Assembly (NCBI RefSeq): GCF_016427565.1
Contig: NZ_JAELXT010000002.1
Span: 1 to 64,000, forward strand
Length of the DNA stretch: 64,000 nucleotides
Reading direction: 5' to 3'
Source: Microvirga splendida
GTDB lineage: Bacteria > Pseudomonadota > Alphaproteobacteria > Rhizobiales > Beijerinckiaceae
The notes beneath the pieces were generated by a model. The model made no database searches. It saw only the letters and a list, made by a program, of their open reading frames with translations, and was not told the DNA's origin. Positions 12,653-57,638 of the stretch are shown here, in pieces; position 1 is the stretch's first letter, and every line of letters begins with the position of its first letter. A program made the position numbers and the translations under genes.

Positions 12653-12750
12653 CCTCATCCTGAGGAGCGTAGCGTCTCGAAGGACGAGGCGTCTCCAGAG
12701 ACCACTGGATCCTCCTTCGAGACGCCGCTGCGCGGCTCCTCAGGATGAGG
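12653..12750. repeat. dispersed palindromic repeat, family A (copy 1, left of GIY-YIG gene)
   Basis: Ends are CCTCATCCTGAGGAGC (left) and GCTCCTCAGGATGAGG (right), exact reverse complements. Inner arms GCGTCTCGAAGGA and TCCTTCGAGACGC are also complementary, so each half is REP-like and the pair forms one long hairpin. Bases 12674-12709 recur exactly, inverted, in copy 2 at 13169-13204. The first 46 bases are identical to copy 4 at 39525. Confidence 0.9.
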
Positions 12751-12778
12751 CTCCGTTGTTTGTCTTAGAGGTGCACAA

Positions 12779-13102
12779 ATGGACGGCTGCTGGTTCTATA
12801 TCCTGCGCTGTGCCGACGGAAGCTACTACACCGGCACGAGCCGGTCGGAGGATTTGGAAACGCGCGTCAGTCAGCACAACCAGGGCATCTTTGGCGGCTA
12901 TACGGCGAAGCGACGGCCCGTTGCCCTCGTCTACTCAATCCAGTTCGGCAGCATCACCGATGCGATTGCCTACGAGAGACAGGTCAAAGGATGGTCGAGA
13001 GCCAAGAAAGAAGCCTTGATCAGAGGCGATTTCGACGCTCTTCAAAGCCTGTCGAAAAGCCGTCGCTCGGGCCTCAAGGCGGGTGAAGCGGACCAGACTT
13101 AG
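12779..13102 (+). CDS. GIY-YIG nuclease family protein
   Basis: A 107-residue single-domain GIY-YIG protein. The GIY half is CWFYILRCADGSYYTG with YIL and YTG as the two signature tripeptides (residues about 7-18), followed by the conserved Arg in LETRVSQHN, and the metal-binding Glu in IAYERQVKGWSRAKKEALI (about 70-85). The family cleaves DNA in recombination, repair and mobile introns; the free-standing YhbQ-like type has no firm role. It stands between two inverted palindromic repeats, which is the key context. RBS is weak (TTAGAGGTG). Confidence 0.9.
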   Translation: MDGCWFYILRCADGSYYTGTSRSEDLETRVSQHNQGIFGGYTAKRRPVALVYSIQFGSITDAIAYERQVKGWSRAKKEALIRGDFDALQSLSKSRRSGLKAGEADQT

Positions 13103-13125
13103 ACATCCAAACATTACAAACTCAA

Positions 13126-13235
13126 CCTCATCCTGCGGAGCCTGCGGAGCAGGCGTCTCGAAGGATGGTCCAGTGGTCTCTGGAGACGCCTCGTCCTTCG
13201 AGACGGATTGCTCCGCAATCCTCCTCAGGATGAGG
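13126..13235. repeat. dispersed palindromic repeat, family A (copy 2, right of GIY-YIG gene)
   Basis: Ends CCTCATCCTGCGGAGC and CTCCTCAGGATGAGG. Contains TGCGGAGC...GCTCCGCA and TCTCGAAGGA...TCCTTCGAGA arms. Bases 13169-13204 are the exact reverse complement of 12674-12709 in copy 1. Its last 11 bases are the 3' end of the minus-strand gene at 13225-13497. Confidence 0.9.
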
Positions 13236-13497
13236 CTGTGGTATTGTCGCTGACCTTCCGGGCTCGTGGTAGAAGGTCTGCTTTAGCCTTTTGAGTCAGC
13301 CACTCGACAAGCTCCAATGGAATATTCTCGCGGTAGGCCGTGAACACCATGTCGTTGCTTTGATCTGAATAGAAGACATCAGCTACGGCATGCTCTCCTT
13401 CATCGGTCATTTCTCTAATTTCGAGATACATGCCATCAGCGATGACATCGCTGCAAAGTAGACTGGTGTAGCGTCTATCACGGATCTCTATAGCCAT
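13225..13497 (-). CDS. hypothetical protein, 90 aa
   Basis: No family recognised. A small soluble protein starting MAIEIRDRRYTSLLCSDVIA with a good GGCGGAGG ribosome binding site. It contains mostly predicted beta strands in the first 60 residues and a helix (ELVEWLTQKAKADLL) after. Its last codons and its TGA stop lie inside the palindromic repeat at 13126-13235, so its natural C-terminus may have been replaced. Base composition is less GC-rich than its neighbours. It follows dihydroorotase on the same strand after 14 bases and may share that transcript. Confidence 0.6.
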   Translation of the reverse strand: MAIEIRDRRYTSLLCSDVIADGMYLEIREMTDEGEHAVADVFYSDQSNDMVFTAYRENIPLELVEWLTQKAKADLLPRARKVSDNTTASS

Positions 13498-18659: not shown

Positions 18660-18769
18660 CGTCATCACCGGCCTTGTGCCGGTGATCCCGATGCGGTGAG
18701 GTGCTGCTCTTTTCGGCATCGGGATGGCCGGGACTGATCCCCGGATCAAGTCCGGGGACGGCCATGACG
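18660..18769. repeat. dispersed palindromic repeat, family B
   Basis: Begins CGTCATCACCGGCCTTGTGC and ends GGACGGCCATGACG, with ATCCCCGGATCAAGTCCGGG as an inner hairpin. It fills most of the 269-base gap between the PaiB-like gene and tag. The remainder of the gap shows no gene. Confidence 0.7.
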
Positions 18770-30636: not shown

Positions 30637-30737
30637 GTATCATTCCCGGCCGGAGCGCAGCGGAGGGGAAGGGAATCCATAGCACTGAGCGTGTGGGTGG
30701 ATCCCCTTCCCTCGCCTGCGGCTCCCCGGGGATGACA
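30637..30737. repeat. dispersed palindromic repeat, family C
   Basis: Left arm TATCATTCCCGGCCGGAGCG and right arm CTCCCCGGGGATGACATC, with GGGAAGGGAATCC and GGATCCCCTTCCC inside. It lies between two convergent genes and could serve as a bidirectional transcription barrier. Confidence 0.7.
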
Positions 30738-30750
30738 TCAACGGGACAGA

Positions 30751-31500
30751 CTAAAACAAGCTCCCCTGCTCGTCCTCGTCGCTGGAGAGCGGCTTCTTGG
30801 CCTTGGGCTTCGTCGCCTTGACCGGCGCGGGCTCCGGCTTTGACAGAGGCTCCAGCAGTCCCGGATCGTCGTTCTCCACCTTGTTGACGCGGCTCGAGAC
30901 CGGCACCATGTCGAGCCACTCGTCCGGGCATGGCCGCACGAGGCGCATCACGTCGGCGCGCTCGTCGCGCACGTCGAGCCAGGCTCCGATGTCATCGGGC
31001 GACAGGATCACCGGCATGCGGTCGTGCACGGCGGACAGGGTGCCGTTGGCGTCCGTGGTGACGATGGCGGCGGTGTCGATCTCAGCCCCGTCCGGGCTGC
31101 TGTAGGTTTCCCACAATCCGGCAAGAGGCATCGGCCTGCGGTCGCGCGGGCGGATCAGGAACGGTGTTTTCTCACGCCCCTCCCGCCGCCACTCGTAGAA
31201 ACCGTCCGCGAGAAAGATGCAGCGGCGGCGCTTCAGGGCATTCCTGAAGGTCGGCTTCGTCTCCAGCGTTTCGCCCCGGGCATTGATGACCAGCGGAAAG
31301 TCCTTCGGGTCCTTGACCCAGGACGGCAGGAAGCCCCAGCGCACCAGCATGAAACGCCGCTCGCCCCGATCCTCCAGCACGATGGGCACCGGCTGGGTGG
31401 GCGCCACGTTGTAGCGCGCAGGAAAGTTCGGTTGCTCCGAATAGCCGTAGAACTCCCGGTAGGTGTCGGGAGGCAGGGTGATCGCATAGCGCCCGCACAT
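30751..31500 (-). CDS. SOS response-associated peptidase (SRAP/YedK)
   Basis: A 249-residue SRAP-domain protein. The mature N-terminus MCGRYAIT provides the catalytic Cys2 that forms a thiazolidine crosslink with abasic sites in single-stranded DNA. Other conserved parts are NVAPTQPVPIV, RWGFLPSW, NARGETLETKPTFRNALKRR, CIFLADGFYEWRREG with the active Glu, and the ITTDANGTLSAVHDRMPVIL-like TTDANGTLSAVHDRMPVIL. The C-terminal 30 residues are a Lys/Pro-rich tail. It protects DNA replication from abasic-site breaks. No LexA box was found upstream. Confidence 0.93.
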   Translation of the reverse strand: MCGRYAITLPPDTYREFYGYSEQPNFPARYNVAPTQPVPIVLEDRGERRFMLVRWGFLPSWVKDPKDFPLVINARGETLETKPTFRNALKRRRCIFLADGFYEWRREGREKTPFLIRPRDRRPMPLAGLWETYSSPDGAEIDTAAIVTTDANGTLSAVHDRMPVILSPDDIGAWLDVRDERADVMRLVRPCPDEWLDMVPVSSRVNKVENDDPGLLEPLSKPEPAPVKATKPKAKKPLSSDEDEQGSLF

Positions 31501-31531: not shown

Positions 31532-31641
31532 CCTCATCCTGAGGAGCAGACGCAGTCTGCGTCTCGAAGGATCGTCCAGAGGGCACTGGAAACGCCCTGA
31601 TCCTTCGAGACGGTCACTGACGCGACCTCCTCAGGATGAGG
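31532..31641. repeat. dispersed palindromic repeat, family A (copy 3)
   Basis: Ends CCTCATCCTGAGGAGC and CTCCTCAGGATGAGG. It carries AGACGCAGTCTGCGTCT, a nested hairpin shared with copy 5, and TCTCGAAGGATC and GATCCTTCGAGA arms. It lies between SRAP and CorA genes on the same strand. Confidence 0.88.
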
Positions 31642-31667: not shown

Positions 31668-32663
31668 TCACAGCCAGCGCTTCCAGCGGAAGAAGAGGTA
31701 GGGCAGCGCGGCGGCAAGAACGATGAGTCCTATCGCCCATAGATAGCCGTAGTCCCACTGGAGTTCCGGCATGATCTCGAAGTTCATGCCGTAGACGGAC
31801 GAGACCAGGGTCGGCGGCAGGAAGATCACGGACATGACCGAGAAGATCTTGATGATGTCGTTCTGCTCGATGGTGACGAGGCCGAGCGTGGCGTCGAGCA
31901 GGAACTGGATCTTGTTGGAGAGAAACGTCGCGTGCTCCTCGATGGACTGCACGTCGCGCAGGGCCGTGCGCCACTCCGCCTGGTAGCCCGCGGTCTTCTG
32001 CGGCCGGGGCATGCTGGCCGAGAGGAACAGCAGCATGCGCTCCACCGACACCATGCTCTCGCGCACATTGGAGATGATGTCGCCCTTGCGGCCGATGGAT
32101 TTCAGGGCAGCGCGGTAGGACGCCGCGCGCTTGGCCCCCTGTCGCTCGTTCTCGAAAATCGCCTGCGACAGGCGGTCGATGCGCGAACCCACGGTGCCGA
32201 GAATTTCGGCCGCGCGGTCGATGATGGTCTCCACGAGCCCGTCGAGCACGGCCTCCGGCTGATGCCGGCACCCTCCGGGCTTCCCGGCACGGGCCATGAA
32301 CATGCTGAACGAGCGCGGCTCGCCGTAGCGCACGGTCACGAGCGCCTTCTCAGTGAGGATGAACGACACGTCGATGAGCTTCGGCGTGTCGGTCTCGGAG
32401 CTGCACAGGACGCGCACGGTCATGTAGCGCGCGTTGTTCTCGTGGTAGAGGATCTCGGACGGCTCGATATCGGCCATCTCCTCCCGGGTCGGGATCTCGA
32501 TGTTGAGATGGGCCTCGACGAGCTTGTCCTCCTCGCGAGTCGGTTCGATCAGGTCGATCCACAGGGCATCGCCGGGAATGGGCGTTCCCGGCGGCAGGAC
32601 GTAGCGGTCGAGGGACTGACCTGCCAGTCCCGTCGCCTGTGTTGGCCTGTGGATCAAAATCAT
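31668..32663 (-). CDS. corA: CorA family magnesium transporter
   Basis: A 331-residue CorA/2-TM-GxN channel that lets Mg2+ (or Co2+, Ni2+, Zn2+ in relatives) into the cell. The large N-terminal cytoplasmic domain is followed by the first C-terminal helix IFSVMSVIFLPPTLVSSVYG and the selectivity motif GMN (YGMNFEIMPEL), then the second helix GLIVLAAALPYLFFRW and a basic end. I start at MILIHRPTQATG; the longer frame reads back through repeat sequence. Ion preference cannot be told from the motif alone. Confidence 0.93.
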   Translation of the reverse strand: MILIHRPTQATGLAGQSLDRYVLPPGTPIPGDALWIDLIEPTREEDKLVEAHLNIEIPTREEMADIEPSEILYHENNARYMTVRVLCSSETDTPKLIDVSFILTEKALVTVRYGEPRSFSMFMARAGKPGGCRHQPEAVLDGLVETIIDRAAEILGTVGSRIDRLSQAIFENERQGAKRAASYRAALKSIGRKGDIISNVRESMVSVERMLLFLSASMPRPQKTAGYQAEWRTALRDVQSIEEHATFLSNKIQFLLDATLGLVTIEQNDIIKIFSVMSVIFLPPTLVSSVYGMNFEIMPELQWDYGYLWAIGLIVLAAALPYLFFRWKRWL

Positions 32664-32711
32664 GCGCGTTCTCGCCCCTCGGCAATATGTATTTTCGGAC
32701 CGGGAGGCCCT

Positions 32712-32812
32712 TGTCATCCCCGGCCGGAGCGTAGCGAAGGGGAAGGGGATCCACAATCATGCTCAGCGCTATGGATCCCCTTCCCTCGCCTAAAGGCTCG
32801 CCGGGGATGACA
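32712..32812. repeat. dispersed palindromic repeat, family C
   Basis: Left end TGTCATCCCCGGCCGGAGCG, right end CTCGCCGGGGATGACA, inner GGGGAAGGGGATCC and GGATCCCCTTCCC. It lies 48 bases upstream of the CorA start and 34 bases past the SDR stop. Confidence 0.75.
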
Positions 32813-39524: not shown

Positions 39525-39622
39525 CCTCATCCTGAGGAGCGTAGCGTCTCGAAGGACGAGGCGTCTCCAGCATGCACTGGACGCTCCTTCGAGACGCCGC
39601 TGCGCGGGTCCCCAGGATGAGG
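39525..39622. repeat. dispersed palindromic repeat, family A (copy 4)
   Basis: Its first 46 bases are identical to those of copy 1 at 12653. The right end (GGGTCCCCAGGATGAGG) has decayed from the usual GGCTCCTCAGGATGAGG. It lies between the acrylyl-CoA reductase start and the MFS gene's stop. Confidence 0.88.
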
Positions 39623-52882: not shown

Positions 52883-52984
52883 TGTCATTCCCGGAAGGAC
52901 GCGCAGCGGAGGGGAAGGGAATCCATGGCGCAGCGCGTGAGACTGGATCCCCTTCCCTCGCCTGCGGCTCGCCGGGGATGACAC
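52883..52984. repeat. dispersed palindromic repeat, family C
   Basis: Left end TGTCATTCCCGGAAGGACGC, right end CTCGCCGGGGATGACACT. Its right edge runs into the stop codon of the S49 peptidase gene (52984-52986), so the repeat marks the very end of that gene. It lies in the glyQ upstream region. Confidence 0.75.
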
Positions 52985-57537: not shown

Positions 57538-57638
57538 CCTCATCCTGAGGAGCAGACGCAGTCTGCGTCTCGAAGGAGGCTCCAGTGCTCTCTGGACGAT
57601 CCTTCGAGACGCCGCTGATGCGGCTCCTCAGGATGAGG
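57538..57638. repeat. dispersed palindromic repeat, family A (copy 5)
   Basis: Ends CCTCATCCTGAGGAGC and GGCTCCTCAGGATGAGG. It shares with copy 3 the first part up to TCTGCGTCTCGAAGGA. It lies between the ispE start and the TPR protein gene's stop. Confidence 0.88.

Follow-up and report, generated by a model that had tools for sequence, protein, structure and literature searches.

Does a small nuclease gene that lies between two inverted palindromic repeats form one system with those repeats, and could it account for their dispersal? The question is raised by the window analyzed here, a 64,000-nucleotide stretch of a Microvirga splendida contig in which a GIY-YIG nuclease gene is flanked on both sides by copies of one repeat, family A. 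The repeats resemble the CGTC-tagged REPs defined by Di Nocera et al. in 2013, which were found in five phyla, mainly Alphaproteobacteria, carry the tag CGTC, TGTC, or CCTC followed by AT, and occur predominantly as head-to-head dimers (PMC3733652). Members of this superfamily include dRS3 of Neisseria and RPE-4/RPE-6 of Rickettsia; in the words of that survey, CGTC REPs "apparently lack a dedicated transposase," no tyrosine transposase was found between them, and other transposases were suggested as possible mobilizers (PMC3733652). Family A has the tag CCTCAT, the repeats of the other gene subtypes described below mostly have CGTCAT or TGTCAT, and head-to-head dimers are likewise the rule.

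All five family A copies in the window are head-to-head dimers (Table 1), and as single-stranded DNA each folds much more strongly than its 200 shuffled versions (z = −6.4 to −8.9). The motif CCTCATCCTGAGGAGC, allowing up to three mismatches, matches the window 12 times, with 10 matches inside the five dimers, whereas 100 shuffles averaged 1.5 matches and never exceeded 6. An earlier reading made from the letters of the window (here, the sequence-only reading) had reported the bracketed gene, its distances to the two flanking copies, and three solo copies elsewhere, all of which we re-found at the same coordinates; its exact 36-nt reverse complement (12674-12709 versus 13169-13204) was also recovered. 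That reading had further described each copy as two REP-like hairpins in inverted order. A more accurate description is of one REP unit (CCTCATCCTGAGGAGC..GCGTCTCGAAGGA..) present twice, head to head, and able to fold into a single long hairpin. The 8- to 9-bp stem, 4- to 5-nt loop, and CCA tail of CGTC-tagged REPs were seen by eye in CGTCATTCCCGC-type units; family A units are longer and imperfect. Rfam gave no match in the window at the gathering score. The first solo dimer separates two minus-strand ORFs, at 30751-31500 (starting MCGRYAITLP) and 31668-32756.

Table 1. The GIY-YIG gene and the family A REP dimers of the window
Feature	Position	Strand	Evidence
5′ family A REP dimer, 28 nt upstream of the GIY-YIG start codon	12653-12750		Motif; hairpin z −7.7
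Single-domain GIY-YIG nuclease gene, subtype T1, 107 aa	12779-13102	+	PF01541
3′ family A REP dimer, 23 nt downstream of the GIY-YIG stop codon, inverted relative to the 5′ copy	13126-13235		Hairpin z −8.9
Solo family A dimer	31532-31641		Hairpin z −7.8
Solo family A dimer	39525-39622		Hairpin z −6.4
Solo family A dimer	57538-57638		Hairpin z −8.1

A Pfam search with the window protein returned its GIY-YIG domain as the sole domain match (E = 1.7e-15). The closest solved folds to its AF2 model (13 sequences; pLDDT 81.1, pTM 0.72) are the UPF0213 structures 1zg2 (E = 6.6e-6) and 1ywl (E = 4.6e-4), with TM-scores of about 0.5; these two are also nearest by sequence, and Slx1 structures rank after them in the fold search, at E = 0.01 and above. 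Tyr7, Tyr17, Gly19, Arg29, His33, and Glu66 are unchanged across 13 aligned members; the two Tyr residues, the Arg, and the Glu have a catalytic role in GIY-YIG enzymes. With one GIY-YIG domain and these conserved residues, the window protein belongs to the standalone UPF0213/Slx1-like GIY-YIG family. NCBIfam gave no match to the window protein; for seven A2 members its best match was a group I intron endonuclease (E = 7.8e-4; six of the seven matching at E up to 1), which probably reflects the common GIY-YIG domain. The best PADLOC match (PDC-S14, E = 5.4e-4) concerned one of the seven, and neither database provided a specific family name.

To score flanking repeats, we took the best inverted repeat between the 300 nt 5′ and the 300 nt 3′ of a gene, with a score of at least 30 counted as positive. 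Among 55 window ORFs scored for an inverted repeat between their two flanks, the GIY-YIG gene reached 139 and the runner-up 28. Family A is dispersed, and if REP-rich intergenic DNA brackets many small ORFs, any one window might by chance have two copies beside a gene; we give this reading practically no credence. In a sample of named loci (the best 80 of 311 relatives), 64 of 79 measurable GIY-YIG genes were positive. Of 221 control ORFs at these loci, only 3 were positive (two of them scoring 104 and 74), as were 1 of 83 control ORFs shorter than 500 nt and, with shuffled downstream flanks, 0 of 79. These controls, the low runner-up score in the window, and the flank-pair test described below refute chance bracketing.

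The association extends well beyond the window. Across 41 Microvirga genomes, each genome has one long-frame match to PF01541 (660 to 749 aa), which we take to be UvrC, and between zero and five small GIY-YIG matches; 40 of the 69 small-gene loci are positive. Best matches from the Alphaproteobacteria were positive in 17 of 30 cases (one, L083, being the same genome's second copy [L002]), phylum-level best matches, Alphaproteobacteria included, in 20 of 25 measurable cases (sample of 26), and members of a plasmid collection in 10 of 12 cases picked from 34 matching records. The T1-like clade outside Microvirga yielded 11 of 18 measurable (sample of 20), usually with a core like TCATCCTGAG..CGAAGGATGA, and a second sample, from the other, non-T1-like clade, 11 of 19 (sample of 20). 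Positive loci of the plasmid-collection sample include those of Neisseria gonorrhoeae (score 106, with dRS3-like CGTCATTCCCGC units) and Aeromonas caviae (46), and two weaker cases, Spirosoma oryzicola of the Bacteroidota (37) and Planktothrix agardhii of the Cyanobacteriota (36); Photobacterium (16) and Rhizobium tumorigenes (15) fall below the flank threshold of 30. Flanked GIY-YIG genes thus occur in Proteobacteria and in two further phyla, with one example each. In the Planktothrix locus (L280, plasmid p1), the gene lies between an MmeI-type restriction-modification gene and drmA of a DISARM system. A close relative on a Dehalococcoidia MAG contig (L192; 68% identity) has no evident flanking repeat, and contamination or transfer are both possible there.

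The sequence-only reading had named homologous genes without flanking repeats as evidence that would count against it. Pooling all samples, an inverted flank repeat scoring at least 30 is present at 166 of 239 distinct measurable loci and missing at 73 by this strict two-sided score, in a set that is nonrandom, consisting mostly of best matches taken first and including broken copies and a few unrelated GIY-YIG genes (L077 to L079). The location of small Slx1/UPF0213-like GIY-YIG genes between inverted CGTC-type REPs is a broad pattern. The same data bear on the idea that the gene is a passenger among REPs, which we consider very improbable. Repeats without the gene exist, and such a reading could draw on the suggestion of Di Nocera et al. 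that other transposases may mobilize CGTC REPs, but that survey reports no tyrosine transposase between the repeats (PMC3733652). Moreover, one protein family recurs between repeats across phyla while control ORFs seldom do so, and a match between protein type and repeat type would be unexpected of a passenger.

Such a match is what we observed. Microvirga genes were assigned by eye to subtypes T1 through T6, T3b, and T7, and their flanks were compared pairwise in a motif-free test, in which a score of at least 40 between flanks defined a common repeat and same-site pairs were excluded by site grouping. Genes of the same subtype in different genomes and at different sites had a common flank repeat in 199 of 204 pairs, versus 4 of 47 pairs of different subtypes within the same genome and 179 of 1,719 pairs differing in both subtype and genome. 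In Microvirga, repeat type tracks gene subtype, not genome. Subtype motif cores, picked after inspection of the same loci and searched up to 260 nt from the gene, placed the cognate core near 14/14 T1, 10/10 T2, 12/13 T3, 7/8 T4, 8/8 T5, and 8/8 T6 genes, with one off-type occurrence; two of four T3b genes have the T3 core. The core CATCCTGAG accompanies 16 of 18 T1-like genes in and outside Microvirga, versus 2 of 148 others. On a FastTree phylogeny of 121 proteins to which a repeat type could be assigned, which left out 45 loci labeled "other" and used label cores picked after the loci had been seen, repeat type changed 20 times, whereas 500 label shuffles averaged 57.2 changes and never went below 52; the 33 Microvirga rows of the tree had 7 changes (shuffle mean, 19.7; minimum, 15). 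We regard both the gene-repeat association and its type specificity as firm.

Type specificity also bears on a role in host maintenance, in which an Slx1-like nuclease removes or resolves REP hairpins or acts on REP transcripts, nearby REPs regulate the gene, and the spread of the repeats has another cause. Slx1 is a structure-specific endonuclease, and its prokaryotic homologues are predicted to act in DNA repair (PMC1564403). The strong folding of REPs and the inheritance of T4 at one stable site in eight genomes would also suit such a role. However, one genome can hold up to three subtypes, and G003 holds five, each with its own repeat type, whereas a general hairpin nuclease needs no matching. 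Some GIY-YIG gene copies are interrupted by stops, unlike a needed repair gene, and more gene goes with more repeats, the reverse of clearance. We therefore judge host maintenance unlikely. The family as described consists of predicted DNA repair nucleases, unlike the repeat-associated genes reported here, and no word starting with "palindrom" occurs in the main text of that description (PMC1564403).

The sequence-only reading had also proposed to test whether the number of family A copies depends on presence of the gene. We counted six exact repeat patterns in the 41 Microvirga genomes, with broken gene copies treated as present and T3b not scored as T3; a reversed-pattern control found no sites, save single matches in two genomes for one pattern run. 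T1 (family A) sites had a median of 43 in the 13 genomes with the gene versus 7 in the 28 without it (AUC = 0.87, p = 7.7e-5). Gene and repeat were likewise linked for T3 (AUC = 0.86, p = 5e-5), T4 (AUC = 0.77, p = 0.01), and T2 (AUC = 0.75, p = 0.009), and not significantly for T6 (AUC = 0.65, p = 0.10) or T5 (AUC = 0.59, p = 0.23) across the same 41 genomes. A copy-number link therefore holds for four of six subtypes at p < 0.05, with p values uncorrected for phylogeny or multiple testing and patterns chosen after loci of the same genus had been seen. The T2 gene tracks T6 repeats equally well (AUC = 0.75 for each); across all subtypes, own-repeat pairing has the top summed AUC (trace) among 720 subtype-repeat assignments. 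Strict dependence of copy number on the gene is rejected: repeats outlast the gene in some genomes, and they are abundant, with no cognate small GIY-YIG gene found, in G037 (152 T6 sites), G026 (190 T2 sites), G036 (58 T5 sites; 2 contigs), and G025 (51 T5 and 32 T1 sites; a 780-contig draft). The window's own genome (G000) has 132 T6 and 41 T2 pattern sites, and no T6 or T2 gene was found there. Other REP sites in the window are of types T6 (2880-2925, 30666-30711, 32740-32785, and 52912-52957), T2 (18679-18731), and T5 (129-168).

How gene and repeats are put together is clearest in the commonest plan, seen at 26 of the 80 named loci (the T3-type pattern), in which the gene has one inward-pointing REP unit on each side and thus occupies the spacer of a head-to-head dimer. 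These 80 loci (L113 to L192) hold 42 solo T3-type head-to-head dimers, in at least 25 of which the gap measures 64 to 72 nt. Gene-bearing T3-type dimers number 29, and in 15 of them the gap is 318 to 320 nt. Long and short T3 forms agree in their commonest inner tail, ATAACCAC, which was found at the left end of 8 solo dimers (of 42) and 11 gene-bearing ones (of 29). Four compact gene-bearing forms measured 392 to 397 bp, and the compact form is approximately 0.4 kb in Bradyrhizobium. A compact element has room only for the GIY-YIG gene and therefore for no DDE, HUH, serine, or tyrosine recombinase. At several Microvirga loci, that of the window included, full dimers flank the gene instead. 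Beside groEL in Bradyrhizobium, the gene is found in both orientations relative to groEL (L163 versus L164 and L176; the gene on the far side was taken, by eye, to be lepB), and the gene-bearing element therefore seems to invert between its repeats.

Evidence for movement comes from comparing filled and empty sites. A joined-flank query for the first solo dimer of the window matched in 41 of 41 genomes, with the halves on different contigs in G007. Among 30 fetched Microvirga loci of this site, the window's included, 11 are clean empty sites of 11 to 12 nt; by pattern and by eye, T1 dimers occupy 4 and T3 dimers 6, a T3/T6 hybrid and a T5-type dimer occupy one locus each, and the remaining 7 hold other or fragmentary DNA. 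Gene-bearing elements show presence and absence too. In Azospirillum lipoferum, a GIY-YIG gene lies between two REP dimers in the sufB-sufC gap, and both this gene and the REP are missing between sufB and sufC in A. oryzae, A. ramasamyi, and strain B510 (94.5 to 95.6% identity over matched parts). In Sphingobium, an element of approximately 0.35 kb has fnrL on one side and a response-regulator gene on the other in plasmids of, for example, TomTYG46 and TomTYG73, the gene being present and unannotated in the latter; TomTYG72 and TomTYG65 have different short DNA at this site, and one palindrome of the element's type remains in TomTYG64 and TomTYG74. The single palindrome of TomTYG64 (L335, approximately 920-955), situated where relatives have REP-gene-REP, has the appearance of two outer halves joined once the gene was lost. 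Comparison of filled and empty sites, whose flanks are too diverged to place the insertion boundary, revealed no target duplication or cut point.

At the window's own locus, the empty counterpart that the sequence-only reading had proposed to look for was not found. The gene lies beside pyrC in seven Microvirga genomes, G031 retains a repeat and an apparent gene remnant, and the other genomes have different DNA, some with another coding sequence; because non-carriers hold different DNA, the Microvirga genomes compared provide no clean empty site for the cassette (12653-13235), and it is the solo-dimer site, Azospirillum, and Sphingobium that supply such sites. A search of plasmid DNA with the window cassette gave just short repeat matches, in two records. 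Adjoining the cassette, a 90-aa ORF (13225-13497, minus strand) runs with its last codons into the 3′ repeat dimer; it has no convincing family match in Pfam, and related DNA adjoins pyrC in G012 and G033.

In Microvirga, the 14 T1 loci fall into 6 site groups, the 10 T2 loci into 5, the 13 T3 loci into 5, the 8 T5 loci into 3, and the 8 T6 loci into 4. T4 occupies one site in 8 of 8 genomes and is therefore not moving there. A frequently jumping cassette is unsupported for T4 and only moderately supported for T1, T2, T3, T5, and T6. The gene seems to relocate seldom while the repeats multiply.

Presence and absence of gene-bearing elements at orthologous sites is also what a homing-type process would produce, in which the nuclease cuts the element-less allele or site, the gene and its repeats are copied in by break repair, and solo dimers are decay products rather than substrates. 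GIY-YIG domains are common in homing endonucleases (PMC1564403), and the genes described here resemble I-TevI-type enzymes in their catalytic domain and mobile context. In Shinella sp. PSBB067, as in Azospirillum, the sufB-sufC gap contains a REP-flanked GIY-YIG gene, a coincidence of site that would fit homing; by eye, however, the Shinella repeats are of another REP type. (sufB-sufC matches in two other records have annotated DUF559 and metal-binding-domain genes there.) Unlike homing endonucleases, the window gene is free-standing and intergenic, with no intron or intein seen and no second Pfam domain, and its nearest folds are UPF0213 and Slx1. Tens to hundreds of repeats of one subtype per genome are no product of allelic homing, which acts at a single site. 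On this balance, homing is an improbable account.

Taken together, the results suggest that GIY-YIG genes of this kind are probably dedicated nucleases of their own CGTC REP types, the window gene being the family A nuclease and representing one subtype within a large family. The core proposal of the sequence-only reading, that a GIY-YIG protein of a single domain serves palindromes much as RAYTs serve REPs, is strongly supported, and well beyond this locus, by the control ORFs, the flank-pair test, the copy numbers, the protein tree, and the pooled loci. Gene and repeats would constitute a single system. Its compact version has the gene in the spacer of a head-to-head REP dimer, in Microvirga the gene often lies between two full dimers, and the scattered solo dimers would be the short, gene-less form. 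We infer from these patterns that the enzyme binds and cuts its REP and thereby drives dispersal: it would recognize the folded form of its own REP, a hairpin or cruciform, and cut beside the tag, after which replication or repair might place REP dimers, and occasionally the gene-bearing form, into new intergenic sites. The broader proposal, which we favor with somewhat more reserve, is a GIY-YIG-based class of mobile repeats in which an enzyme of approximately 95 aa, encoded inside a palindrome pair, disperses its cognate palindromes and accounts for CGTC-type REPs, the dRS3 type of Neisseria included, in several phyla.

The nearest parallel is the REP-RAYT system, in which a small gene likewise lies between inverted REP units and short head-to-head dimers are dispersed in the genome (PMC3733652). 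The enzyme here is a GIY-YIG nuclease, unlike the HUH tyrosine transposase of that system (IS200/IS605-type TnpA-REP), and the units typically start with CCTCAT, CGTCAT, or TGTCAT, unlike the GTAG tag. RAYT genes have a low copy number and are often inherited in place while their repeats are many, and the same is true here. As with IS elements and their MITE derivatives, long gene-bearing and short gene-less forms have similar ends, but the compact form is without any of the recombinases of IS elements. If it is a self-encoded mobile element, the compact form of approximately 0.4 kb is, to our knowledge, among the smallest such elements. The proposed system would work in a REP-RAYT-like manner without the defining enzyme and tag of REP-RAYT. 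The words transposase, nuclease, and GIY are missing from the main text of the RepRanger paper of 2025 (PMC12306157), and a literature search outside preprints and most subscription journals found no paper linking GIY-YIG genes to REPs; priority is uncertain.

In contrast to CGTC REPs as published, with no dedicated enzyme, the repeats described here are accompanied by a matched nuclease gene, which points to these enzymes as the hitherto missing partner of a widespread class of bacterial repeats. The 2013 survey left the spread of CGTC REPs open (PMC3733652), and a cognate nuclease makes the question directly testable. If the proposal is true, REP-like populations had at least two origins, and the enzymes involved are unrelated; many proteins annotated merely as "GIY-YIG nuclease family protein" acquire a suggested role; and matched enzyme-palindrome pairs, several per genome, constitute a natural specificity set. 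Among the Microvirga genomes, G008 has 704 T2-pattern sites and a T2 gene as its only small GIY-YIG match, and it is a good model for a repeat burst.
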